Shown here one piece after another: positions 37,315-64,000 of a DNA stretch of 64,000 bases; within the stretch, counting starts at the first letter, position 1; every line of letters starts with the position of its first letter. This DNA comes from Synechococcus sp. KORDI-100 (GTDB taxonomy: Bacteria; Cyanobacteriota; Cyanobacteriia; PCC-6307; Cyanobiaceae). The notes beneath the pieces were generated by a model. That model was not told the origin of the DNA and made no database searches. It worked only from the letters and a program-made list of their open reading frames with translations. Both the position numbers and the translations under genes were made by a program. The DNA lies in the NCBI RefSeq assembly GCF_000737535.1, contig NZ_CP006269.1, forward strand, positions 2,418,001-2,482,000, read 5' to 3'.

Positions 37315-37370
37315 CAATCAACTTCAAGCCGCTGCGCCAGGGCCCGAAAAGCAAGTCTCTGACAACTAAA

Positions 37371-37408
37371 AAGGGCCCTTCCAGGCCCCATGAGTCATTT
37401 GGGTGATA
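37371..37408. repeat. attR-type direct repeat (functional ssrA 3' end)
   Basis: Partner of 25361-25398. On the minus strand it contains the end of the tmRNA gene and its terminator, GGGGCC-TGGAA-GGGCCC followed by TTTTT. Confidence 0.8.
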
Positions 37409-37650
37409 AGGCTGACTTCACCCCATCTCCCTTAATGGGTCAGGCAGCAACAGGGGCTGCTTGACGGGAGAAACGAACGATGTTGTTCGCAGTTACGGGT
37501 TTGCTCTTACCGAGCAGGCTTCAGTCACCCTCCTCATGCCCCGTCGAAACCATTGCAGCCCCGAAGTGGGGGAAATGGAGCTGAGCGGAATCGAACCGCT
37601 GTCCGAAACACTGGTGTGGATCACCTAGTCCGGGGTACCGAACCTTGCCA
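37385..37650 (-). ncRNA. ssrA: tmRNA, circularly permuted two-piece form
   Basis: On the minus strand the acceptor piece comes first: GGACAGCGGTTCGATTCCGC (T arm) then CAGCTCCA. After a short intervening segment (37563-37575) comes the mature 5' piece, GGGGCTGCAATGGTTTCGAC. GGGGCTG pairs with CAGCTCC, including the alanine-identity G3-U pair. The tag reads (A)NNIVRFSRQAAPVAA and ends in TGA near 37443. The 3' end with a terminator hairpin is the att site of the 12-kb element. tmRNA rescues stalled ribosomes by adding this degradation tag. The 5' limit of the acceptor piece is approximate. Confidence 0.92.
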
Positions 37651-37664
37651 TTCTGGCAGCAGTC

Positions 37665-38828
37665 GTGATCCGGAGCACTGCCCCATTGGGTCGTGAGAAC
37701 CGATTTCCTGCCATCGCCGTGCTCCCCCAGGGATTGGAACAGGAGGGCTGCCAGGAGTTGACAGCCCTTGGAGCTCACGATGTCCAACCACGCCAACGAG
37801 CAGCGGCTTTTCGAGCTGATCGGTCCTGCTTCTACAGACTGCACCTGCAAGCACGTTTGCCCTTTCGATTGCTGCGGCAGATGGCTCGCTTCGATTGCCG
37901 CAGCCGAGATGAGCTGTACGACGGAATCCAGAACGCACTGGACTGGGAGCAATGGCTGCACCCTTCTCAAACGTTCCGCGTTGATGTGACCGGCTCAGCT
38001 CCCGGGCTGAACCACAGCCATTTCTCTGCTCTGCAGGTGAAGAATGCCCTGGTGGACCAGCAGCGTGATCGATGGGGAAAGCGATCCTCCATCGATCTGG
38101 AGGATCCCGATCTGGCGCTGCACCTGCATCTGAGTCGAGGGGAGGCGCTGCTCAGCTTTGATGGCAGCGGCAGCAGCCTGCATCGCCGGGGATACCGAGC
38201 CGCGATGGGACGTGCACCCATGAAGGAAAACCTGGCGGCTGGTCTGATCCGGCTCACGGGCTGGGATGGATCGGTTCCGTTGGTCGATCCTTGCTGCGGT
38301 TCCGCCACACTGTTGATCGAAGCAGCCGCGATCGCCCTTCAACAGGCACCGGGACTCAACCGCAGCTTTGCCTTGGAAGGCTGGGTCGATTTCGAGCCCA
38401 AGCTCTGGCAGCAGGAGCAAGCCCGCGCCAGGCAACGACGGCGGCGCGATGTGAACCTCCCGCCCCTGATCGGTTTTGAACAGGATCCCGCCATCGCGGA
38501 TCAGGCACGGACCAACGTCGCCGCCGCAGGCCTCAAAGGGGTGATCAGCATCGTCACCGGCCACTTCAACCAACAAGAACTTCCATCAGGCCAGGGCGTC
38601 CTGGTCTGCAACCCTCCCTATGGAGAGCGGATTGGCTCCGACGACGACCTCGACAACCTCTACGCCTGCCTCGGTGACTTCGCCAAACAACAGGCCTCAG
38701 GCTGGCAACTCTGGCTGCTCAGCGGCAATGCCAGCCTCACACGGGCATTACGCCTCAAAGCAGAGCGGCGAATTCCAATCAACAACGGCGGGATCGACTG
38801 CCGTTGGCTGCATTACTCGATCCACTGA
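37665..38828 (+). CDS. THUMP-domain RNA methyltransferase (RlmL N-terminal / YcbY type)
   Basis: A SAM-dependent methyltransferase of about 370-387 residues. The N-terminus AIAVLPQGLEQEGCQEL starts the THUMP/ferredoxin-like domain. The catalytic half has VDPCCGSATLLIEAAAIA (SAM loop), then FEQDPAIADQAR, and GVLVCNPPYGERI (NPPY, typical of N2-guanine or N6-adenine methylation). The likely target is a guanine in 23S rRNA (position 2445 in E. coli). The GTG at 37665 is the longest start; it lies just upstream of, and divergent from, ssrA, so a start a few codons later is possible. Confidence 0.88.
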   Translation: MIRSTAPLGRENRFPAIAVLPQGLEQEGCQELTALGAHDVQPRQRAAAFRADRSCFYRLHLQARLPFRLLRQMARFDCRSRDELYDGIQNALDWEQWLHPSQTFRVDVTGSAPGLNHSHFSALQVKNALVDQQRDRWGKRSSIDLEDPDLALHLHLSRGEALLSFDGSGSSLHRRGYRAAMGRAPMKENLAAGLIRLTGWDGSVPLVDPCCGSATLLIEAAAIALQQAPGLNRSFALEGWVDFEPKLWQQEQARARQRRRRDVNLPPLIGFEQDPAIADQARTNVAAAGLKGVISIVTGHFNQQELPSGQGVLVCNPPYGERIGSDDDLDNLYACLGDFAKQQASGWQLWLLSGNASLTRALRLKAERRIPINNGGIDCRWLHYSIH

Positions 38829-48866: not shown

Positions 48867-48877
48867 GGAAAAGGAAG

Positions 48878-48959
48878 TGCGGATGGCGAGACTTGAACTC
48901 GCAAGGCCGAAGCCACACGCCCCTCAAACGTGCGTGTCTACCAATTCCACCACATCCGC
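48878..48959 (-). tRNA. tRNA-Leu (anticodon GAG)
   Basis: An 82-nt cloverleaf with a long variable arm. Acceptor GCGGATG pairs with CATCCGC; the D region contains GGTAGAC; the anticodon stem CACGT/GCGTG holds the loop TTGAGGG (anticodon GAG). The T arm GCGAGTTCAAGTCTCGC is intact. Decodes CUC/CUU. Confidence 0.93.
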
Positions 48960-53230: not shown

Positions 53231-55207
53231 TCAGGGACGCCCGAAGTCATAGCTGGCAGCGGGGATCAGCCGCCATTCATCAGTGCCGGACAGTTCCAGC
53301 ACGGTGTCGTGGAACGCCTTCAACGTGGGCCTGTGGCCGACGCTGATGAACGACACCTCACGATCACGCAGAAGCGCATACAGGCGCGATTCCGTTTCCA
53401 CATCCAAAGCACTCGTGGCTTCATCGAGCACCACAACCTTGGGTGAATTCAGCAGCAACCTTGCGAAGGCGAGCCGTTGCTGCTCTCCCAGAGACAGCAG
53501 CCGCGGCCAATCCTGCTTGATGTCGAGATCGGGGTAGCGCTGCATCAATTTGCTCAGCATCACCTGGTCGAGAACGGCACGCAGCTGGTCATCACTGAAG
53601 CGGGCCTGATCCAGGGGATAACAGAGCTGTTCCCGGAGCGAGCCGAGAGCCATGTAGGGCTTCTGGGGAATGAACAGCAAATCCCCCTGTCCAGGGGACT
53701 CGACCGTTCCGGTCGGTGATCCCCAGAGACCACTCACCACACGGAGCAGAGAGGTCTTGCCGCATCCGGAGGGTCCGACAACGAGAAGTCCCTCGGCGAC
53801 GTCCAGCGAAAAACTCAGATCGCGGACCAGCACGTTGTCCGTCCGAGGAGTTTTGACCGTGACACCTCTCAACGCCAATCGATCGGAAGAAACGATCTTG
53901 GGAACAAAATCACTCCATTCCTCGGGATCAAGATTGGACACATTTGATTGGAAACCCTCCAACCTGTTCACAGAAGCGGAGAAGCGAGCCAGTGCCTCAA
54001 TGTTGTAGACAATGAAAAACAGCGAATTTTCAACAAGGTTGTAGGCGACATTGGCTTGGGCGAAGCCGCCATAGTCCATTTTACCTGCCAGAATTGGTGC
54101 GGCCAGTATCAGATAAGGGATGAAATTGCTGGCGTAAATACTGGATCGTTGCAGCACCCGCAGCAGCACCTCCCAGACAATCAGCAGATTGAAGTTTTCA
54201 ACCACCGTGGCGAGGCGCCGTGTGACCTCCTTCGACTCCTGCTGTTCTCCCGAATAGAAAGCGATGGATTCGGCATTGTCACGGATCCGCACCAGTCCGT
54301 AACGAAAATCGGCCTCGTAGCGCAGCTGAAAATTGTTCAGTCGCACCAGCTTCCTGCCGGCCACGATCATCAGGATTGAGACGGCAGATGCATAGATCAA
54401 CAGAGCAAACGTCAAACTCTCACTGACGGAATAAAGAATCAGGATATTGAGAGAAAAAGTGAGAATTGAATCAAAAATGTTGATCGCAAACTCCAATGCC
54501 TGAGCCGTGAAATCCTTGACGTCCTCTGAAATCCGTTGATCAGGATTGTCAACATTTGTGGCCTGCTCATCATTCGGATTGAGCACATAATACGCACGAT
54601 CCTGCAGATAATCATCCACCAGGCTCAGCGACAACCATTCCCGCCAGAACAGACCAAGTTTCCGGGTGAAATAAAACTGGAGACTGCGAATCGGAAGCGC
54701 GACTGCAAAACAAGCCCCGTAAACCCAGAGATTGCGATACGACGCTTCTCCATCCCTGGCGATCAGGGCATTGGTGAGATCACGGGCAATGAAGGTGATC
54801 CCAGCGTTGACGCCGTTCACACACAGCAGCATCAGAATGATCACCCCTAGAAACAGCCAGGGAAGCCATCGGCGGTAACGCAATTGCCCCCGCTCAGAGG
54901 CGAACGCCACAACTCCCACCAGAAACAGGGCGCTGATTCCCGCACCCCAGCCGCGGGACCAGATCATCGCCAGGGATGACTGGACGCCTCCGAAGTACTG
55001 ACCGGTCAACTCCGGCATTAACCAGGTGAGGCCATTCATCAGGCCGGTGACCAGGAACAGAACGATCCCGGCGACGCAGAAGAGCAGGCAAACCAGCAGT
55101 CCGAAGAACTGCCAGCCGTTGTCCTCTGTGTATGGGAAAAAGTAGGGCTGAGACAGTCGACGCAACTTGGCGGACTGATCGCGAAGGTTCTGAAGCTGGT
55201 GGATCAT
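53231..55207 (-). CDS. ABC transporter, fused membrane and ATPase domains (SbmA/BacA/YddA-like)
   Basis: A 658-residue protein. The N-terminal half has about six membrane helices (from LLVCLLFCVAGIVLFLVTGL onward) and the PF06472/SbmA-BacA-like segment EWLSLSLVDDYLQDRAYYVL. The C-terminal half is an ABC ATPase: LLVVGPSGCGKTSLLRVVSG (Walker A), SLGEQQRLAFARLLLNSP (signature), KVVVLDEATSALDVETES (Walker B), and SVGHRP (H-loop). Members import or export peptides or long-chain acyl compounds. It is last in its strand group, before hli, and the HIT gene is just upstream on the same strand. Confidence 0.88.
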   Translation of the reverse strand: MIHQLQNLRDQSAKLRRLSQPYFFPYTEDNGWQFFGLLVCLLFCVAGIVLFLVTGLMNGLTWLMPELTGQYFGGVQSSLAMIWSRGWGAGISALFLVGVVAFASERGQLRYRRWLPWLFLGVIILMLLCVNGVNAGITFIARDLTNALIARDGEASYRNLWVYGACFAVALPIRSLQFYFTRKLGLFWREWLSLSLVDDYLQDRAYYVLNPNDEQATNVDNPDQRISEDVKDFTAQALEFAINIFDSILTFSLNILILYSVSESLTFALLIYASAVSILMIVAGRKLVRLNNFQLRYEADFRYGLVRIRDNAESIAFYSGEQQESKEVTRRLATVVENFNLLIVWEVLLRVLQRSSIYASNFIPYLILAAPILAGKMDYGGFAQANVAYNLVENSLFFIVYNIEALARFSASVNRLEGFQSNVSNLDPEEWSDFVPKIVSSDRLALRGVTVKTPRTDNVLVRDLSFSLDVAEGLLVVGPSGCGKTSLLRVVSGLWGSPTGTVESPGQGDLLFIPQKPYMALGSLREQLCYPLDQARFSDDQLRAVLDQVMLSKLMQRYPDLDIKQDWPRLLSLGEQQRLAFARLLLNSPKVVVLDEATSALDVETESRLYALLRDREVSFISVGHRPTLKAFHDTVLELSGTDEWRLIPAASYDFGRP

Positions 55208-55261: not shown

Positions 55262-55603
55262 TCAGCCGGGGGGCCAGGCCAGGGGACGACCGCCGATCAC
55301 ATGCACATGCAGGTGGAAAACGGTCTGACCGGCAGCGGCGCCACTGTTGATCACCGCGCGCCAGTCCTCAAGTCCCTCCTGTTTGGCCACCTTGGCAGCC
55401 ACCAACAGCAGATGGCCCAGAAGCGCCTGATGCTCCGCAGCAGCGGCACGAAGGCTTTCGATCGGCTGGCGCGGGATCACCAAAACATGAACAGGCGCCT
55501 GGGGAGCGATATCACGAAAGGCGAGACAGAGATCGTCGCTGTAGACCTCATCACAGGGAATCTCGCTGCGGAGGATCTTCCCGAAAATCGTGTCATCCGC
55601 CAT
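55262..55603 (-). CDS. HIT-family nucleotide hydrolase
   Basis: A 113-residue protein of the histidine-triad family: LAFRDIAPQAPVHVLVIPRQ and QTVFHLHVHVIGGRPLAW, the second holding the HxHxH-hydrophobic motif that binds and hydrolyses nucleotide phosphoramidates or AMP conjugates. Divergent from comM. Confidence 0.92.
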   Translation of the reverse strand: MADDTIFGKILRSEIPCDEVYSDDLCLAFRDIAPQAPVHVLVIPRQPIESLRAAAAEHQALLGHLLLVAAKVAKQEGLEDWRAVINSGAAAGQTVFHLHVHVIGGRPLAWPPG

Positions 55604-55679
55604 GGGTCGGGGGAGTAGGAACTGCCGAAAGGTGGGACAGGCAGGGCATGGATCTCATACCTCGTCCAATTCCCTGCCG

Positions 55680-56594
55680 ATGCTGGCACGTTGTCTGAGT
55701 GCATCCATTCAGGGCCTTGATGCCCGCCCCGTCACGGTCGAGGTTGACCTGGCGCCGGGTCTCCCCGGAGTCCAGCTCGTGGGACTGCCGGACGAGGCGA
55801 TCCAGGAATCGAGGGAACGGGTGCGTTCCGCTCTTCGCAACAGCGGGTTTCGAGGTCCTCTGGTCAGGGTGGTCATCAACCTGGCCCCGGCGGATGAACG
55901 CAAGGAGGGACCCTCCTTCGATCTCCCGATCGCCCTGGCCCTGCTGGTGGCGAGCGGCCAGCTGGATGCACCGCTGCTGGATGGACTCTGGTGTGCCGGA
56001 GAACTGGGTCTTGATGGCGGTCTGCGTCCATGCCGAGGTGTGATCGCCATTGCCGAACTGGCGGCTCGGGCTGGAGCCAGAGCACTGCTCGTCCCGCCGG
56101 ACAACGCCAACGAAGCCGCCTTGATCCCGGCCCTCACTGTGGGGACCGCCCAGAATCTGCGGGAGCTGGTGGAACAGTTGAAGCAGCGGCGCCCGGGACG
56201 GTCGCTGCCGAGGATGAGCCTACGAGCTCACGCCATACCAAGGGATCGAGCTGATCTGCCCGATAGCGAGATGGGAGCGCAAGCCCTGGCGCTCGCGGCC
56301 GCTGGCGGCCATCACCTGCTGCTGGTGGGGCCACCGGGCTGCGGCAAAACCCGACTGGCCCAGTCTCTGCTTCAACTGCTTCCACCACCGGAGGACAAGG
56401 AAGCATTGACCGTGACCAAAATTCACTCGGTGGCAGGGATGTTGAGCCAACCAGCGGATCTGCAACGCCAGCGGCCCTTCCGTGCTCCCCACCATCGCTG
56501 CACCGCAGCCGCCCTGCTTGGAGGCGGTCTCCATCCCAGCCCCGGTGAACTGAGCCTGGCCCATGCGGGAGTCCTGTTTTTCGATGAACTATGA
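55680..56594 (+). CDS. comM: Mg-chelatase-like ATPase ComM/YifB, truncated by an island
   Basis: From ATG 55680 the first ~304 residues are normal: MLARCLSASIQGLDARPVTV, the N-terminal alpha/beta domain, and LLLVGPPGCGKTRLAQSLLQ (Walker A). The frame then stops right after GVLFFDEL, where Walker B should continue. A normal ComM has about 500 residues and a further sensor and C-terminal region. The composition changes sharply at this point. ComM is a branch-migration helicase used in natural transformation, so transformation may be impaired here. The missing 3' part is expected at the right end of the island, outside the window. Confidence 0.9.
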   Translation: MLARCLSASIQGLDARPVTVEVDLAPGLPGVQLVGLPDEAIQESRERVRSALRNSGFRGPLVRVVINLAPADERKEGPSFDLPIALALLVASGQLDAPLLDGLWCAGELGLDGGLRPCRGVIAIAELAARAGARALLVPPDNANEAALIPALTVGTAQNLRELVEQLKQRRPGRSLPRMSLRAHAIPRDRADLPDSEMGAQALALAAAGGHHLLLVGPPGCGKTRLAQSLLQLLPPPEDKEALTVTKIHSVAGMLSQPADLQRQRPFRAPHHRCTAAALLGGGLHPSPGELSLAHAGVLFFDEL

Positions 56595-57471
56595 GACACT
56601 TTGCAATGTGGCCTAGATCCTAGTCATAGCTTGAATCAGCTGCAGCGACAGCGAGTTGGTATTTGGTTGGTATCTGTTGAGTGGTTGGTATTGGCATGGA
56701 TTGGCGTGGCTGATACCGAGCCTGTAAGACCCCTGAAAGGCTCCACAGCAGGCCGTAGATCTATTGTTGATACAAACTACCTTGATGAGGTTTTGATAGC
56801 ATTACAGGCCAATATAAGTGGAGTTAGTGTGGTCAAAGAAGGTAAGATATAGCCGCTACAGATCACAACAAAAAACACGTTATATGTGGATTTGCTAACA
56901 CAACATACACCATAGAAAGTGTTACTTGCTGTGCACATGTTGCATGAGTTATAGATAGATAGTTAAATGGTTATGTATCCCGCTTGCCACTTGCACTCAC
57001 GTGCGTGGCTGCGCTCCATTACGCATGGATGGCTGAGAGCAGCAGAGCTTATTGAGAATCAAAAGTTGCTAGCACTGCTATGCATGGCCAGGTATTCAGT
57101 CAGTAACCAGCACCAGCCTTGTCATACCAATGGATCTTGGCAGGCATACCAACTTAATCAGTCAGGTCATACCAACCTTCGACTAGATACGGTATCTATC
57201 TCGCGCCGATTTACAAAACAAAAGAGAGGGGGGGGGGTGGCCTATTCAGACATCAATTCCCAGCGCCAAAACTGCAGCAATTACAGAAAATAAATCAAAC
57301 CAGTCAGGATTAGATTTACAGGGTCAAGTCAAAGTGTCATCCGCTGGTGTAATTCATAAATACATACATGCACATGCCTCCTTCCTTCTAGCCCTTCCAA
57401 AAAAATAAAAAGAGGAGGGGGTATAGGGGGAATTTGCGCACTTCCTATACTATATATCCCTTCACAAAATT
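56595..57471. other. Island left end: AT-rich, no gene, TTGGTAT repeats
   Basis: About 880 bases. Contains two groups of TTGGTAT-type repeats in opposite orientation (see the separate entry) and a G-run near 57227. No coding frame is convincing. Confidence 0.5.
56656..57175. repeat. TTGGTAT repeats near the island end
   Basis: Direct copies of TTGGTAT at 56656-56662, 56667-56673 and 56685-56691, with a near copy TTGGCAT at 56691, and three inverse copies ATACCAA at 57124-57130, 57146-57152 and 57169-57175 spaced 22-23 bp apart (about two helical turns). This is the layout expected of recombinase or excisionase arm sites, or of a replication or regulator site. Confidence 0.5.
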
Positions 57472-57822
57472 ATGTCATTTTCCATGAGGTCATTACTTAG
57501 AACTGTTCCACTCATCGGCTCACTCCTCATCTCGGCTGCTCCAGTTCAGGCCATTGAAACATTTGAGGAGTTAATGGAAGCTTGTAATGCTTCAGAAGAA
57601 ATAGATAATATTTGTACAAAAGCTGGTGTATTTAGTGGTACTGTTTTTACTGTGAGTTTGCTTTGTGAATTAGAAGAAAAAGGCAGTCTTACAAGAGAGG
57701 AGTTAGTTTTGAATTGGGATGAATTTGTTGAGGAGAATGGTATGACAACACCACTGTCGCAGGAAGCAGTAGAGTTTACACTAAAAAATTTCCCAGACTG
57801 TTCACTTAAACCTAAGTTATAG
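57472..57822 (+). CDS. Four-Cys secreted protein, tandem copy 1
   Basis: About 116 residues (MSFSMRSLLRTVPLIGSLLI; a start at the second ATG, MRSLL, is equally likely). The signal peptide ends near PVQAIE. The mature part has ELMEACNAS, NICTKAG, SLLCELEEKGS and FPDCSLKP: four Cys, likely two disulfides. First of four tandem paralogs that share the N-terminus (PLIG(S/A)LLIS(A)APVQA) and the final CS(L/I)KP. Function unknown; the array suggests dosage or diversity, as in toxin or adhesin families. Confidence 0.7.
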   Translation: MSFSMRSLLRTVPLIGSLLISAAPVQAIETFEELMEACNASEEIDNICTKAGVFSGTVFTVSLLCELEEKGSLTREELVLNWDEFVEENGMTTPLSQEAVEFTLKNFPDCSLKPKL

Positions 57823-57856: not shown

Positions 57857-58204
57857 ATGAAACTCCTTCCACTCATCGGTGCACTACTCATTTCAGCAGC
57901 AACAGTTCAGGCTTTTGAAACACTTGAGGGGTTAGATAAAGCAACACTTGAGGAGTTAGATGAAGCATGTCTTGAAACAAATGAAAATTTTCTGTTGTGT
58001 CAAGGAAAAGCTCTGGCGACTTCTGCACGAAACAGAGTTGACGTGCTTTGTGAGTTAGTGAGGCAAGACTTAATTACAACACAAAATGCAGTTAAGATGT
58101 GGAACAAATATAATGAAACTTATGGCCATCCTTTATGGACTCAAGCAGCAAATAGTGTGTTGGAAGAATATCATCCGAATTGCCCAATTAAAACGGTTCC
58201 TTGA
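57857..58204 (+). CDS. Four-Cys secreted protein, tandem copy 2
   Basis: A 115-residue protein from MKLLPLIGALLISAATVQAF. The second and third Cys are in LLCQGKA and VLCELVRQ, and the last in YHPNCPIK. The TCAGGCTAGTCC-ATG leader is shared with copy 4. More diverged than copies 1 and 4. Confidence 0.68.
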   Translation: MKLLPLIGALLISAATVQAFETLEGLDKATLEELDEACLETNENFLLCQGKALATSARNRVDVLCELVRQDLITTQNAVKMWNKYNETYGHPLWTQAANSVLEEYHPNCPIKTVP

Positions 58205-58311
58205 ATAAGCCTAAGGATTTGAAGAAATCTCTAGAGATTCCAGAGGATGCTCAATGGAAGCTGTTCCCGGTGGATTGAGATGCGATTATTAGACCTTGCA
58301 GGTTGTCTCTT

Positions 58312-58635
58312 ATGAATTTCCTTCCACTCATCGGTGCACTGCTTCTTTCAACAGCACCAGTTCAGGCTTTTGAAACATACGATGAATATGTCAACGCTTG
58401 CATTTCTTCAGAAGAAAACACAAAGCTATGTGATAGATCTGCTGAATGGCATTCTGCTGTGTTTGTCACAAACACACTTTGTAAATTAGAGTGGAGAGGT
58501 TTCCTTACAGCAGAAGAAGTAACTAGATATTGGGAAGAGGTTGAACTCAGTCCTCAACCCGATAATCTGCGCAAAGAAGGAGTGAATTTCATGCTAAGAA
58601 CTCATCCGACATGTTCAATTAAACCTATTCCTTAG
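58312..58635 (+). CDS. Four-Cys secreted protein, tandem copy 3
   Basis: About 107 residues from ATG 58312 (MNFLPLIGALLLSTAPVQAF). Four Cys: NACISSEEN, TKLCDRSAE, TLCKLEWRG, HPTCSIKP. Same signal region and terminal motif as the others; the middle part has diverged. Confidence 0.68.
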   Translation: MNFLPLIGALLLSTAPVQAFETYDEYVNACISSEENTKLCDRSAEWHSAVFVTNTLCKLEWRGFLTAEEVTRYWEEVELSPQPDNLRKEGVNFMLRTHPTCSIKPIP

Positions 58636-58676
58636 TTGATAACTTCATGCATCATCAGTTCTTTCAGGCTAGTCCC

Positions 58677-58994
58677 ATGAAACTCCTTCCACTCATCGGC
58701 TCACTCCTCATCTCAGCTGCTCCAGTTCAGGCTATTGAAACATTTGAGGAGCTAGATAAAGCTTGTAATGCTTCAGAAGAAATATATACTACTTGCACAA
58801 AAGCTGGTATATTTGTTGGTACTTTTTCATGGGTGAGTTTGCTTTGTGAATTAGAAGCAAAAGGCAGTCTTACAAGAAAGGAGACAGTTTTGACTTGGAC
58901 TGAATTTGTTCAGAAGAATGGTATGACACCACTGTCGGACAATGCATTAGAGATGTCATTAGAAAAGTTCCCAGAATGTTCAATTAAACCTTAG
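58677..58994 (+). CDS. Four-Cys secreted protein, tandem copy 4
   Basis: About 105 residues from ATG 58677 (MKLLPLIGSLLISAAPVQAI). Closest to copy 1: ELDKACNASEEI, TTCTKAGI, SLLCELEAKGS, FPECSIKP. The upstream leader TTTCAGGCTAGTCCCATGAA matches copy 2. Duplication of copy 1/4-type units with their leaders is recent relative to copies 2 and 3. Confidence 0.7.
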   Translation: MKLLPLIGSLLISAAPVQAIETFEELDKACNASEEIYTTCTKAGIFVGTFSWVSLLCELEAKGSLTRKETVLTWTEFVQKNGMTPLSDNALEMSLEKFPECSIKP

Positions 58995-59067
58995 TTGTAG
59001 CTTCCAGCAAAAAGGCTCTACAACAAGCGACGAAGATTTACCATTTAAATTGGATTAATTGAAGCAA

Positions 59068-59095
59068 TAAAAAAACCCTCTAAATGCAGAGGCTT
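59068..59095 (-). terminator. Terminator of the lanthipeptide precursor gene
   Basis: Minus strand: GCCTCTGCATTTAGAGGG then TTTTTTTATTGCTTCAAT. The hairpin and the ATTGCTTCAAT flank resemble the first half of the cassettes at 32097 and 60652. Confidence 0.65.
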
Positions 59096-59132
59096 GAGTG
59101 TGTGGAATTTATATCTATCTTCCTACAAAAAT

Positions 59133-59390
59133 CTAACACCCCCCAGTAACAAATACGCACACAGAATTCCCCGTCCAGCCGCCACCCCCAGCTGCGCCTT
59201 CCAGTTCCTCGTCTGACAATTCTACCGTTGTCGATTGCATTGATTGAATATCTTCTGAGGTAATTGAAAATCCAGCTTCTTTGGCGATTTGAAGAGCAGC
59301 ATCTGCATCTGCAGCTCCATTGAGCTTTTCCTGAAGGCTGGTGTCGCCTTTGACTTTCTCTAGAAAGGCTTTGAGTTGCTCTTCTGACAT
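59133..59390 (-). CDS. Nif11-type lanthipeptide (prochlorosin-like) precursor
   Basis: An 85-residue peptide. The N-terminal ~69 residues are a Nif11-type leader (MSEEQLKAFLEKVKGD, then LQIAKEAGFSITSEDIQSMQ) ending VELSDEELEGAAGG, the double-glycine cleavage motif of ProcA peptides. The remaining core of about 16 residues (GGWTGNSVCVFVTGGC) has two Cys and three Ser/Thr, enough for up to two lanthionine rings. ProcM-like synthetase and a C39-type exporter are not in the window; in picocyanobacteria precursors are often far from lanM. The terminator follows at 59068. Confidence 0.85.
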   Translation of the reverse strand: MSEEQLKAFLEKVKGDTSLQEKLNGAADADAALQIAKEAGFSITSEDIQSMQSTTVELSDEELEGAAGGGGWTGNSVCVFVTGGC

Positions 59391-59439
59391 TGGTGATAGA
59401 GGAAGCCTGCACTGTTGTTAGCAATATCAGTGGTCAGGT

Positions 59440-59545
59440 GATGTTCCGTAAGGCACAGAGTGCCTAGCAATAAAAATCCCCGCCATTACTGACAGGGTGG
59501 TGTGTGTGAGGCTTGTCGGGAGATGGGCAGCACAATCAACTTCAC
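59440..59545 (-). repeat. Dispersed terminator-bearing repeat, copy 2
   Basis: Contains GGCACAGAGTGCC (a short palindrome), GCAATAAAAATCCCCGCCAT, ACTGACAGGG, GTGTGTGAGGCTTGTCGGG and AGCACAATCAA. The same order of parts is seen at 60038 and, more degraded, at 23463. It overlaps the stop of the secreted-protein gene at 59542. Confidence 0.6.
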
Positions 59546-59916
59546 TTCGCCCATGATTTTTCTGAGCAGGGACCACCTGTGAACCGCCCACCACAGATAT
59601 CGAACTTGTAGGGAGACCCGTCTGGATCACCTTGGTACAGAACCTTGTTGTGGGGTGTGAATCTCACGACCATCTGAGTCGCATATCCACCGATATATTC
59701 CGAGTAGCCATATTGCCAACCAAGCTCAGATTCGAAGTGGTTGCCCGCCACTACACTTGAGCATTGCCTTGCAAGCTTCTGTACCTCACATCTGCCCTTA
59801 TAGCAGATTTGCATGAGTCCTTCTGCGGGACCACAACCCGCTTGAACAGGAGGCAAAAGAGAAATGGCCACTCCAGCCAAAGCCGGAGCAGGAAGAAGCC
59901 ATTGAAGTACCTTCAT
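59542..59916 (-). CDS. Small exported protein, Cys-rich
   Basis: About 124 residues from MKVLQWLLPAPALAGVAISL (the upstream ATG at 59925 is less natural). Signal peptide ends near PPVQAG. The mature part has six Cys (GCGPAEG, QICYKGRCEV, ARQCSSV, DICGGRF, GPCSEK). No family recognised. Confidence 0.55.
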   Translation of the reverse strand: MKVLQWLLPAPALAGVAISLLPPVQAGCGPAEGLMQICYKGRCEVQKLARQCSSVVAGNHFESELGWQYGYSEYIGGYATQMVVRFTPHNKVLYQGDPDGSPYKFDICGGRFTGGPCSEKSWAK

Positions 59917-60016
59917 AAAGCACAAGACTGCACTACAAATACAGTATCAATCGTTGTGCAAAAGCTGTCATCCCTCACCTAGACAGGGAGAAACATCCAT
60001 CAGGGATATTAGCCAG

Positions 60017-60043
60017 CCATACAGAAGAAGAGCACCATTCAGG
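60017..60043 (-). repeat. 27-bp inverted repeat, left member
   Basis: The minus strand reads CCTGAATGGTGCTCTTCTTC then TGTATGG, identical over 27 bp to 61423-61449 on the plus strand. The pair encloses about 1.4 kb. Confidence 0.7.
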
Positions 60044-60170
60044 TAGGCACAGAGCACCTCGCAATAAAAATCTCCGCCATTGCTGACGGGGTGAAGTGTG
60101 TGAGATTTTGTCGAAAGAAGGATAGCGACAACAACGCCCCCTGCTTTTCCCTTGTGGGTCTTGTATTGCA
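60038..60170 (-). repeat. Dispersed terminator-bearing repeat, copy 3
   Basis: Aligns with 59440-59545 and 23463-23567: AGGCACAGAGCACCT, GCAATAAAAATCTCCGCCAT, TGCTGACGGGG, GTGTGTGAGATTTTGTCG, then CCTTGTGGGTCTTGTATTGC. It follows the minus-strand gene at 60171. Confidence 0.6.
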
Positions 60171-60542
60171 TCAATTCTTTAGGAGGGGATATAAAAACTG
60201 CCTGTAGATCCAAAAAGCAAATATCATCGAAGGCAAATCAACCACAATCCAGTTAGCAATCCTGGTCTGCTCGTATGTTTTGCAAAAAGGTATTTTAATT
60301 CTCCAGCCACGAGCCCTTTGAATCCAATAGTTGTGCTCTCTTTGTTTGTAACAAATCTCTCTGAAGAAGATGAAGTATTTCGTTTCGCGAACCCTTATCC
60401 CCAGCCTACTCTCATTCTCTGCGTCGCTCCATTCATAGCTTTCATCTTCGACAAATTTACCTTTTTCCCATCGATTCCATGCCCAATGACTGGTGCTGAT
60501 GCTGCCGCTTTGGTTGTACTGCACCCACATCACTGTTCCCAT
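60171..60542 (-). CDS. Hypothetical protein with C-terminal membrane anchor
   Basis: A 123-residue protein: a Trp- and Tyr-rich soluble part (GSISTSHWAWNRWEKGKFVE) followed by a C-terminal hydrophobic helix (VVDLPSMIFAFWIYRQFLYP). Lies between the members of the 27-bp inverted repeat. Not recognised. Confidence 0.45.
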   Translation of the reverse strand: MGTVMWVQYNQSGSISTSHWAWNRWEKGKFVEDESYEWSDAENESRLGIRVRETKYFIFFREICYKQREHNYWIQRARGWRIKIPFCKTYEQTRIANWIVVDLPSMIFAFWIYRQFLYPLLKN

Positions 60543-60651
60543 AGGGAATCGACTTCCTCGTCTGAAGGATTTTCCTAAGTAATCTTATCCATAATCTGGA
60601 AGGGGGCAAGCCAGTACAAGATCACTTGTGACCTTGCTCACATGGACGACA

Positions 60652-60773
60652 AGGCAATAAAAAACCCCGCCATTGCTGACGGGGTGAAGTGTGAATTGTG
60701 CCAGGTATTGAAGGCTGATTGATGGGGTTAGTCAGACGATTGAAGCAATAAAAAGCTCTGTCAATGCAGGGGC
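60652..60773 (-). terminator. Double-terminator cassette, inverted copy
   Basis: On the minus strand: AGCCCCTGCATTGACAGAGC then TTTTTATTGCTTCAATCG, the spacer with CAGCCTTCAATACCTGGCAC, then CCCCGTCAGCAATGGCGGGG and TTTTTTATTGCC. Same parts, order and spacing as 32097-32216, 28 kb away. It follows the truncated precursor at 60811. Confidence 0.75.
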
Positions 60774-60810
60774 TGTGACGGCGTAGGATCCCAATCTATA
60801 CCCCTATATC

Positions 60811-61020
60811 TCAACACTTTATCGTACACGCAGCAGTTACCCCTATATCTCCAGTCACAAGACATCGTCCACCGCGAGCTGCACCTTCTTCCAGCTCATC
60901 ATCTGACAATTCTATTGTTGCCGATTGCATTGATTGAATATCTTCTACGGTAATTGCAAACCCAGCTTCTTTCGCAATCTCCACTACAGCGTCTGAATCT
61001 GCATCTGTGACATTTACAGA
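60811..61020 (-). pseudogene. Leader-truncated Nif11/prochlorosin-like precursor
   Basis: The minus-strand frame ends AARGG-RCLVTGDIGVTAACTIKC-stop, preceded by VEIAKEAGFAITVEDIQSMQ and SATIELSDDELEEGAARGG. This is the second half of a Nif11 leader plus a core with three Cys and three Thr. The usual N-terminal MSEEQLKAFLEKV part is missing, and no ATG, GTG or TTG lies in frame upstream before a TAG. The gene at 61014 ends exactly where the leader remnant begins, suggesting a deletion or recombination fused unrelated sequence to it. Confidence 0.6.
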
Positions 61021-61223
61021 CCTCGAGACTTGGCACGAACTGCTTGCCTAACTGAGTCAATGACAGTATCTGCCTGACCAGATCTCGAGCCATTCATATC
61101 AACAGGCGCAGAGGGTTTCTGAGGTTGCTGTAAAGGCTGTATTTGCTGACCAAGATTCTTCTTAAGGATCTGACTTCTGATTACATCAGCCGGATCAGTG
61201 CATTGTTGTTGTGATGAGTTCAT
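61014..61223 (-). CDS. Small hypothetical protein, 69 aa
   Basis: A polar, Gln/Ser-rich protein (MNSSQQQCTDPADVIRSQIL ... AVRAKSRGL) ending in TAA at 61014, exactly at the edge of the precursor remnant. Possibly a hybrid or unrelated small gene. Confidence 0.35.
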   Translation of the reverse strand: MNSSQQQCTDPADVIRSQILKKNLGQQIQPLQQPQKPSAPVDMNGSRSGQADTVIDSVRQAVRAKSRGL

Positions 61224-61550
61224 AATAAATTTCGCTTCATAGTTGCCTTGATAGCAAGTAAATGTTCTTTGATTGACCTATTAAATATGTGATCCAATAC
61301 GCCTCTTTGTGTCGTCGTATTGATAAAGTTTTCACAAGTAGCACCAGGACTCACCCTCCAATTACTGTCGGTTCCTAGTGCATATGTTGATGGTGATTAG
61401 ATGCCAGTGAGCTATGCATCCGCCTGAATGGTGCTCTTCTTCTGTATGGGGTGTCATTGCCTACTCGGCGTGTTTCTCCCCTGTATAACGTAGCGATTAC
61501 CAACTAAACCCTGTTGCCGCACCTAATGTTTGGGGATTAGTGATAGACGA
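61224..61550. other. No gene; contains one inverted-repeat member
   Basis: About 330 bases. Holds the right member of the 27-bp inverted repeat (61423-61449) and nothing else recognised. Confidence 0.5.
61423..61449 (+). repeat. 27-bp inverted repeat, right member
   Basis: Identical (27/27) to the minus strand of 60017-60043. GTTTCTCCC appears again near 61471, outside the repeat, echoing the sequence outside the left member. Confidence 0.7.
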
Positions 61551-63091: not shown

Positions 63092-63241
63092 TCATTGCTG
63101 AGTTAATTGCACTTCTTGTTCATACTTTCTAATTCGTCTCCGTAAGGTTTTTTGGTCTATCTTGAAATAGGCAGCTATCACTGACCACGTGATACCACTA
63201 TCGTACATTTGTATGGCTTGTGTTAGTTGCTTGTTATTCAT
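63092..63241 (-). CDS. Tiny HTH protein overlapping the integrase
   Basis: A 49-residue protein, MNNKQLTQAIQMYDSGITWS then VIAAYFKIDQKTLRRRIRKY. The second part is a resolvase/Psq-like helix-turn-helix. Its ATG overlaps the end of the integrase gene by 8 nt (ATGAATAA), so translation is coupled. Size and position fit an excisionase (directionality factor), which is an inference. Confidence 0.6.
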   Translation of the reverse strand: MNNKQLTQAIQMYDSGITWSVIAAYFKIDQKTLRRRIRKYEQEVQLTQQ

Positions 63242-64000
63242 TGTTAAATAGATCTATTTTCTTAGCTTGTAGTAATTTCTTACCTAGTTCAGGTAACGTT
63301 AACTCTGCACCTTTCCTACGTAAGTTAAGTCTTGCATAAGTCTTCTGTGTCTCCACAATACTGTGCCCTGCCATCTGCGCTACTTCCATAACAGGAATGC
63401 CCTTCATCAATTGATCTTCAATAAAGGAGCTGCGCATGCTGTACAAGGTGTAAGGGTGAGGGCTGAAACGATGACCACTCAACTTATCCTTAAGTTCATT
63501 ACGTATGTCACGCCATACCTCACCGTAATGCTTGTAAGAGAATGGCTTCCAATATCTACGTGGATCACCAAAGACATAGCTATCCTTAGTAATAACAAGG
63601 TCTTTAGCTTGGTTATCTTTGATCCACTGCTCTAACCATGCTTTCCACCTTTGAAGCTCTCTTGCTTGGTTAGCTGGTATCTCCCTAGCTTGTTGTGTCT
63701 TTGCTCTGATTGTCCTTACATATGCTACTTCCCACTTAACACGTTCAGCCTTGCTATTAACTCTACCTTCATCGATGATCTCAATTTGCTTCCACTTTAA
63801 CTTCAATACTTCTTCAGGTGACATTCCAGTGTTCTTAGCAAATAGCAAGTAATGCCAGAAGATATTTCTAAAGATCCAACCTGATTGATTCTCTTGATGT
63901 AGTGGTCGTTTCCTCCACTCATCCCTCACGAAATCAATAATCGTCTTCCAGTCTTCTGGTGTTATGGCAGGGTTCTTCATCAGGTCAGTATCACGAATGA
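63234..64000 (-). CDS. Tyrosine recombinase of the second island, N-terminus outside window
   Basis: The visible ~255 residues are the C-terminal part of an integrase: the frame is open to the window edge (IRDTDLMKNPAITPEDWKTI), so the N-terminus lies beyond. Catalytic signatures: YTLYSMRSSFIEDQLMKG (box II Arg, with Tyr for His), AGHSIVETQKTYARLNLRR (box III His and candidate Tyr). Where Arg I is normally found the sequence reads NTGMSPEEVLKLKW, with Ser at the Arg place. It may be a variant or defective enzyme. It is expected to act at the ends of the island that interrupts comM. Confidence 0.8.
   Translation of the reverse strand, partial: IRDTDLMKNPAITPEDWKTIIDFVRDEWRKRPLHQENQSGWIFRNIFWHYLLFAKNTGMSPEEVLKLKWKQIEIIDEGRVNSKAERVKWEVAYVRTIRAKTQQAREIPANQARELQRWKAWLEQWIKDNQAKDLVITKDSYVFGDPRRYWKPFSYKHYGEVWRDIRNELKDKLSGHRFSPHPYTLYSMRSSFIEDQLMKGIPVMEVAQMAGHSIVETQKTYARLNLRRKGAELTLPELGKKLLQAKKIDLFNNE

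Follow-up and report, generated by a model that had tools for sequence, protein, structure and literature searches.

A probable synechococsin precursor carried as an orphan on a comM-inserted element of Synechococcus sp. KORDI-100

In the marine cyanobacterium Synechococcus sp. KORDI-100, a small gene that resembles the precursors of prochlorosins and synechococsins is found apart from any enzyme that would modify its product, which raises the question of how the peptide would mature and why the gene stands alone. The gene is located in a stretch of 64,000 nucleotides, the window, which covers positions 2418001-2482000 of a genome of 2.789 Mb contained in a single contig (G000 in our numbering). 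The case bears on a standing question of prochlorosin biology, namely how the many scattered substrates of one LanM are maintained, spread and diversified. We regard it as probable that the gene encodes a synechococsin precursor, which is modified in trans by a single ProcM-type LanM and which has become an orphan through a comM element and a duplicated cassette.

The precursor gene and its shared 5′ block

The features of the precursor and its immediate surroundings are:

59133-59390, minus strand: SyncA/ProcA-type precursor coding sequence of 85 amino acids with an ATG start (leader 59184-59390, core 59136-59183, stop 59133-59135)
59391-59454, minus strand: conserved 5′ block, -64 to -1, holding GGAACATCACCTGACCACTGAT (59426-59447) and a -10-like TGCTAA (59418-59423)
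59077-59092, minus strand: terminator-like hairpin with a T tract, located 41-56 bases past the precursor stop
59542-59925, minus strand: open reading frame of 127 amino acids with a signal-peptide-like start and no family match in Pfam or PHROG
about 60811-61002, minus strand: relic Nif11 precursor that has lost the N-terminus of its leader, with a readable core RCLVTGDIGVTAACTIKC (TIGR03798, 33.7 bits, profile positions 27-66)

An earlier note on this DNA had described an intact Nif11 leader ending in EGAAGG and a 16-residue core with two Cys and three Ser/Thr, and both descriptions are borne out. The leader of the 85-residue frame matches Pfam Nif11 at 1e-17 and the NCBIfam model TIGR03798 (leader_Nif11) at 3.4e-25 (residues 1-69, scoring 88 bits where 32 suffice), and its end, DEELEGAAGG, fits the motif (D/E)ELExxxGG given for ProcA and SyncA leaders (PMC10783134). 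The core following the double Gly, GGWTGNSVCVFVTGGC, contains Thr4, Ser7 and Thr13 in addition to Cys9 and Cys16, with a cut position that is ambiguous by two residues because of four consecutive Gly. When its first 50 leader codons are compared with nine paralogues from the same genome, dN/dS ranges from 0.18 to 0.39 for six of them (one of which is a pseudogene) and silent sites are saturated for the remaining three. A chance open reading frame as the origin of 59133-59390 is ruled out by the E-values of both leader models and by dN/dS. We also consider it highly improbable that the protein, small and leader-like, serves a different role and is no peptide precursor: Nif11 matches do occur in other kinds of proteins, such as the MALDQL-type L016, but the double-Gly end of the leader, the Cys/Ser/Thr-containing core and the presence of a ProcM-type LanM in the genome all speak for a precursor.

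The cores of this family contain Cys and Ser/Thr and vary from paralogue to paralogue. The proposal that the core in the window is a candidate new one stands in so far as its letters found no match in the open full-text literature and the inspected cores of relatives differ from it. It is qualified by the likeness of a pseudogene core from this genome, and its absence elsewhere applies to the candidates scored, at most 13 in each copy-rich genome. KORDI-100 has already been mined for SyncA precursors (PMC10783134), and the core may be catalogued among these. The nearest core seen, VWGDTGSCFLCTSFC, belongs to the said pseudogene and keeps W, TG, S/C and C-x3-T-x2-C in an unchanged succession. 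As a separate observation, the core CQVNSA(K/Q)LSFPPYC(E/D)FP of L007 in KORDI-100 and of L042 in the genome G017 is kept across two species of the genus, unlike most cores inspected. None of the 42 pattern matches to the precursor among viral contigs was confirmed, and a search of phage records with 59000-61300 gave no match.

The precursor shares its 5′ region with its paralogues. Among 11 such genes, itself included (55 pairs), the mean identity of the block is 0.71, compared to 0.57 at fourfold leader sites and 0.35 at positions -264 to -200. The block exceeds the fourfold sites in 40 pairs and does not in 15, and it falls below them in three (L005, L011, L018) of the ten pairs that include the gene in the window. 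A mere recent duplication was considered as the origin of this likeness and rejected, since in the 24 divergent pairs, whose leaders are less than 60% identical, the block holds 0.68 while the fourfold sites drop to 0.39. Allowing up to three mismatches, the 22-mer GGAACATCACCTGACCACTGAT of the block occurs at ten genomic places (none for a reversed control), all of which, by comparison of coordinates, are located just 5′ of Nif11 matches and none in front of LanM. Across several genera, 58 of 83 precursors contain TGCTA between -42 and -28, compared to a mean of 1.17 and a maximum of 6 in shuffles, which leave common descent in, part of which is removed by the fourfold comparison. A search of ten precursor loci with Rfam found no known RNA family, with a single asX2 hit below threshold (25 bits against 70, E 0.63), and a scan for the sigma-70 consensus did not call the block. 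Judged by its conservation and position, we infer that the block is a family promoter, so that the orphan copy would be expressible on its own; its transcription would be driven by this block and would end at its own terminator.

These features also bear on whether the gene could be a recently stranded and non-expressed copy, mobile cargo that is turning into a pseudogene and yields no product. Decay is common enough in this genome, where at least four precursors are clearly broken (by an internal TGA in L011, a frameshift in L018/L019, the loss of the start codon in L014 and truncation in L020), with a decayed copy found on the same element less than 2 kb away, and two relatives, G106 and G227, carry precursors without a LanM match. 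The intact frame, the family 5′ block, the terminator-like hairpin and a leader dN/dS below 0.4 argue against such a fate of the copy in the window, which we consider unlikely.

Modification and export in trans

The claim that neither a LanM nor an exporter is encoded nearby holds, as the sole LanM match and the sole C39 match of the genome are both found outside of the window. The genome search for lanM, suggested as a check with the absence of the enzyme as refuting outcome, retrieved one LanM in the whole genome (1796166-1799519, 1117 amino acids, PF05147 8.2e-35, TIGR03897 727 bits), at a distance of about 678 kb from the precursor. In an alignment with LicM2, its residues C965 and C1011/C1012 show the CCG zinc-site arrangement of ProcM-type enzymes, and the three zinc-ligand Cys are kept in three LanM relatives from marine Synechococcus and Prochlorococcus with 49-52% identity. 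The presence of a single ProcM-type enzyme at such distance supports the view of a prochlorosin-like precursor whose synthetase acts in trans. ProcM and SyncM are both reported to serve many dispersed substrates (PMC10783134, PMC9872173).

The Nif11 leader model finds 25 matches in the genome at E <= 1, of which 18 are above cut-off. Nine precursors combine an intact leader with a double Gly and a core, four of them adjoining LanM and five, including the gene in the window, located elsewhere, whereas the Nif11 copies L015 and L017 do not contain a double Gly. The C39 peptidase ABC transporter is found at about 1.39 Mb with ABC2-like and HlyD-like neighbours. Its best NCBIfam match is TIGR03796 (NHLM_micro_ABC1), which it hits with 678 bits where the cut-off is 853, and NHLM export families are the best matches of the proteins in this locus, all under the curated NCBIfam cut-offs. 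Within the window, positions 53231-55207 encode a PF06472/SbmA-BacA-type ABC transporter, located outside of the element described below.

In the proposed pathway, the Nif11 leader would be recognised in trans by the distant ProcM-type LanM, which would dehydrate Ser and Thr residues of the core prior to the addition of Cys. The likely rings would connect Thr13 with Cys16 and Cys9 with either Thr4 or Ser7, an assignment to which the likeness of VWGDTGSCFLCTSFC lends weak support in a single comparison. Since SyncM is reported to form rings in either direction, other patterns are possible; its rings reach 14 residues in natural products and 15 in an engineered one (PMC9872173). The C39-type ABC exporter encoded elsewhere in the genome would finally cut after the double Gly and export the product.

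The LanM cluster also encodes a SagB-family dehydrogenase together with a complete YcaO/SagD protein, a pair that could act on some precursors, and a secondary azole modification of SyncA peptides of KORDI-100 has been proposed (PMC10783134). It is thus conceivable that this azole machinery, alone or in addition, modifies the precursor in the window rather than LanM. The type of the leader suggests otherwise, with classes being assigned by eye from the sequences: the leader in the window is of the FLEKVK type, whereas a different type, FWxAIQ, accompanies short cores. Latter is found in KORDI-100 in L010, L012, L013 and the start-less L014, with cores including FHACACI, GGFVSSVLSV and AECWTI, and in the genome G169 in L118 and L134, with short cores in two of three that were read; overall, short cores comprise 6-11 residues. 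Among the matches listed, FWxAIQ leaders at 77% identity or more are confined to these two genomes, both of which contain YcaO above cut-off. FWxAIQ leaders may thus define a class of YcaO substrates, against which count the looser FWEAVQ leaders (65-67%) of G061, where the core is long and YcaO about 3 kb distant, and of G270, a genome without YcaO. In light of its leader type, we find an azole-modified product of the gene in the window quite improbable and retain LanM as the modifying enzyme.

The comM element and the duplicated cassette

The isolated position of the gene is probably accounted for by its surroundings, whose features are:

55590-56589, plus strand: 5′ half of comM (yifB) with ChlI and Mg_chelatase domains (PF13541 1.2e-40; PF01078 positions 4-115 of 207)
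56580-56588, no strand: left junction with the att-like sequence TTCGATGAA; its right counterpart TTTCTCGATGAA is at L003:961-972 (window-equivalent about 64961)
56656-56691, plus strand: three copies of an arm-type TTGGTAT repeat near the left end, with two further copies near the right end
57472-57822, 57857-58204, 58303-58635 and 58647-58994, plus strand: four tandem genes of small secreted Cys proteins, convergent with the precursor
63092-63241, minus strand: HTH protein of 49 amino acids, adjoining the integrase (PF13518 2e-6)
63234-64000 and on to window-equivalent 64646 (L154:7235-8647), minus strand: tyrosine integrase of 470 amino acids (Phage_integrase 2.2e-10, PHROG integrase 5.7e-18)

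Together they describe an element of about 8.4 kb, extending from 56580 to window-equivalent 64961 (L154:581-8962), which interrupts comM within the codons of the Walker B motif; the 3′ part of comM restarts at genome position 2482958. Its GC content of 0.44 contrasts with 0.62 in both flanks, and it carries the precursor, the relic, the secreted Cys genes, the HTH gene and the 470-residue integrase; the remaining open reading frames listed within it do not exceed 127 amino acids. The precursor is probably an orphan because it is carried on this element, which may be mobile, and in a duplicated cassette, an arrangement in which precursor substrates would spread while the enzyme stays in place.

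Insertions at the same place recur within the genus. A Mg_chelatase match is present in 27 of 34 genomes and missing in seven, and in three of the 34 (G000, G006 and G023) comM is split with a gap at profile positions 109-117. The insert of G006 is 16.8 kb long and encodes an integrase that is 65% identical to the one in the window, and the insert of G023 is a remnant of 0.48 kb, while G002, G019 and G027 show other comM defects or partial matches. TCGAYGAR is found at both junctions of all three insertions. In KORDI-100 and G006, TTGGTAT repeats are located close to both ends of the insert; in the G023 remnant they are close to the left end, where a block of 22 nucleotides containing the repeat is identical. 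No tRNA was found in the comM stretches of the three genomes or beside the junctions of the element in KORDI-100; the only tRNA of the window is at 48877-48959, and a tmRNA is located at 37349-37665. In the genome G013, an integrase with 64% identity has no comM match in its flanks of 1.5 kb and comM is one unbroken match, which argues that this integrase family is not always bound to comM. An alignment of two integrases, searched against viral contigs, gave 65 pattern matches, of which one was confirmed, with an identity of only 23%. The comM element of G006 also encodes a phage-type single-subunit RNA polymerase (L155:7783-10440, PF00940 8e-24, PHROG 2e-109), a possible sign that the element lives like a phage satellite. 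Titles and abstracts returned no related report on comM-inserted integrase islands in Synechococcus.

The second factor, the cassette, is apparent from the secreted Cys proteins. At E <= 1e-5, matches to these proteins number 13 in KORDI-100, 22 in G005 and 11 in G018, several of them containing stops, and none was found in the other 31 genomes of the genus. Pfam has no match for the four proteins and PHROG none for the one scanned; a predicted structure consists of helices only (mean pLDDT 86.5) and matches no PDB entry at E <= 0.001. Secreted genes are convergent with a precursor or a pseudogene at three places, the window, 2352546/2352911 and 829580/829997, and since the intergenic DNA at these places is similar, the block has been duplicated. 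A tract of 695 bp (60045-60724, L193:2294-2986) is 84% identical to the locus at 2.35 Mb and part of the duplicated cassette; an open reading frame of 123 amino acids within this tract may be non-coding, as its copy shows a stop and drift. The link between both gene types is not obligate, as a search at 1e-5 finds no precursor in G005, a genome with secreted genes; within KORDI-100, the secreted genes at about 1.475 and 1.733 Mb have no Nif11 match near.

It is tempting, if still tentative, to think of prochlorosin substrates as cargo of comM elements and of duplicated cassettes, which travel and use any promiscuous LanM of their host, perhaps with the secreted Cys proteins as partners. If true, this would constitute a mobile substrate library that is separate from the enzyme, with a cassette composed of the 5′ block, leader, new core, terminator and secreted partner genes. 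With a precursor residing in a defined site-specific element and a 5′ block common to dispersed paralogues, both spread and co-regulation become directly testable.

Distribution among relatives and comparison with known systems

The search within the family covered 400 genomes, an even sample of a larger group. Precursors at E <= 1e-20 are found in 18 of them and LanM matches in 27, with both occurring together in 15 of the 18 precursor genomes (Fisher 2e-17) and LanM lacking such a precursor in 12 genomes; in copy-rich genomes, at most 13 candidates each were scored for the precursor and copy counts are thus lower bounds. No LanM match accompanies the precursor in G106 and G227 (99% complete) and in G017 (53% complete), and such precursors can thus persist in the absence of the enzyme. 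Any precursor match at 1e-5 is limited to five of the 34 genomes of the genus. Some matches in relatives, as in G306, G102 and G276, reach the last residue, and the cores inspected there differ.

Among known elements, tycheposons are small elements of Prochlorococcus that encode a tyrosine recombinase and integrate at a tRNA gene. The element in the window equally is a small tyrosine-recombinase element in a picocyanobacterium, but its attachment site is the protein gene comM instead of a tRNA. As for the site, Tsy and Tn6022 insert at the Walker B motif of comM (PMC10293859), and the element resembles both in this location, in a protein of the tyrosine-recombinase family and in a small HTH gene beside the recombinase. 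It differs from Tsy, which consists of YRec plus TnsF, in containing one tyrosine recombinase, which Pfam and PHROG classify as an integrase, and from both in the location of this integrase at the comM 3′ end of the element instead of the 5′ end and in its marine cyanobacterial host.

With respect to the peptides, precursor genes that are scattered, served by a promiscuous enzyme and located near recombination genes have been described (PMC10783134), and lanthipeptide genes of Prochlorococcus LLIV are found in genomic islands (PMC7522525). The arrangement in trans and the island setting are thus already known in general for prochlorosins and synechococsins, and what is added here is a likely explanation for the orphan position of this precursor. 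The cluster of KORDI-100 described in PMC10783134, comprising the core FHACACI and LanM with YcaO and SagB, is found in the present genome with both parts. The accessible text of that paper contains no mention of the gene in the window, the comM element or the shared 5′ block, and the words promoter and upstream do not appear in its main text. The likeness to the ProcA/SyncA and ProcM/SyncM systems includes the same Nif11 leader with double Gly, the hypervariable core with Cys and Ser/Thr, the single CCG LanM and the dispersed precursors. The chemistry that would follow is no different from that of prochlorosins and synechococsins; what sets the gene apart is a core that differs from those compared and its place as cargo of a comM element.
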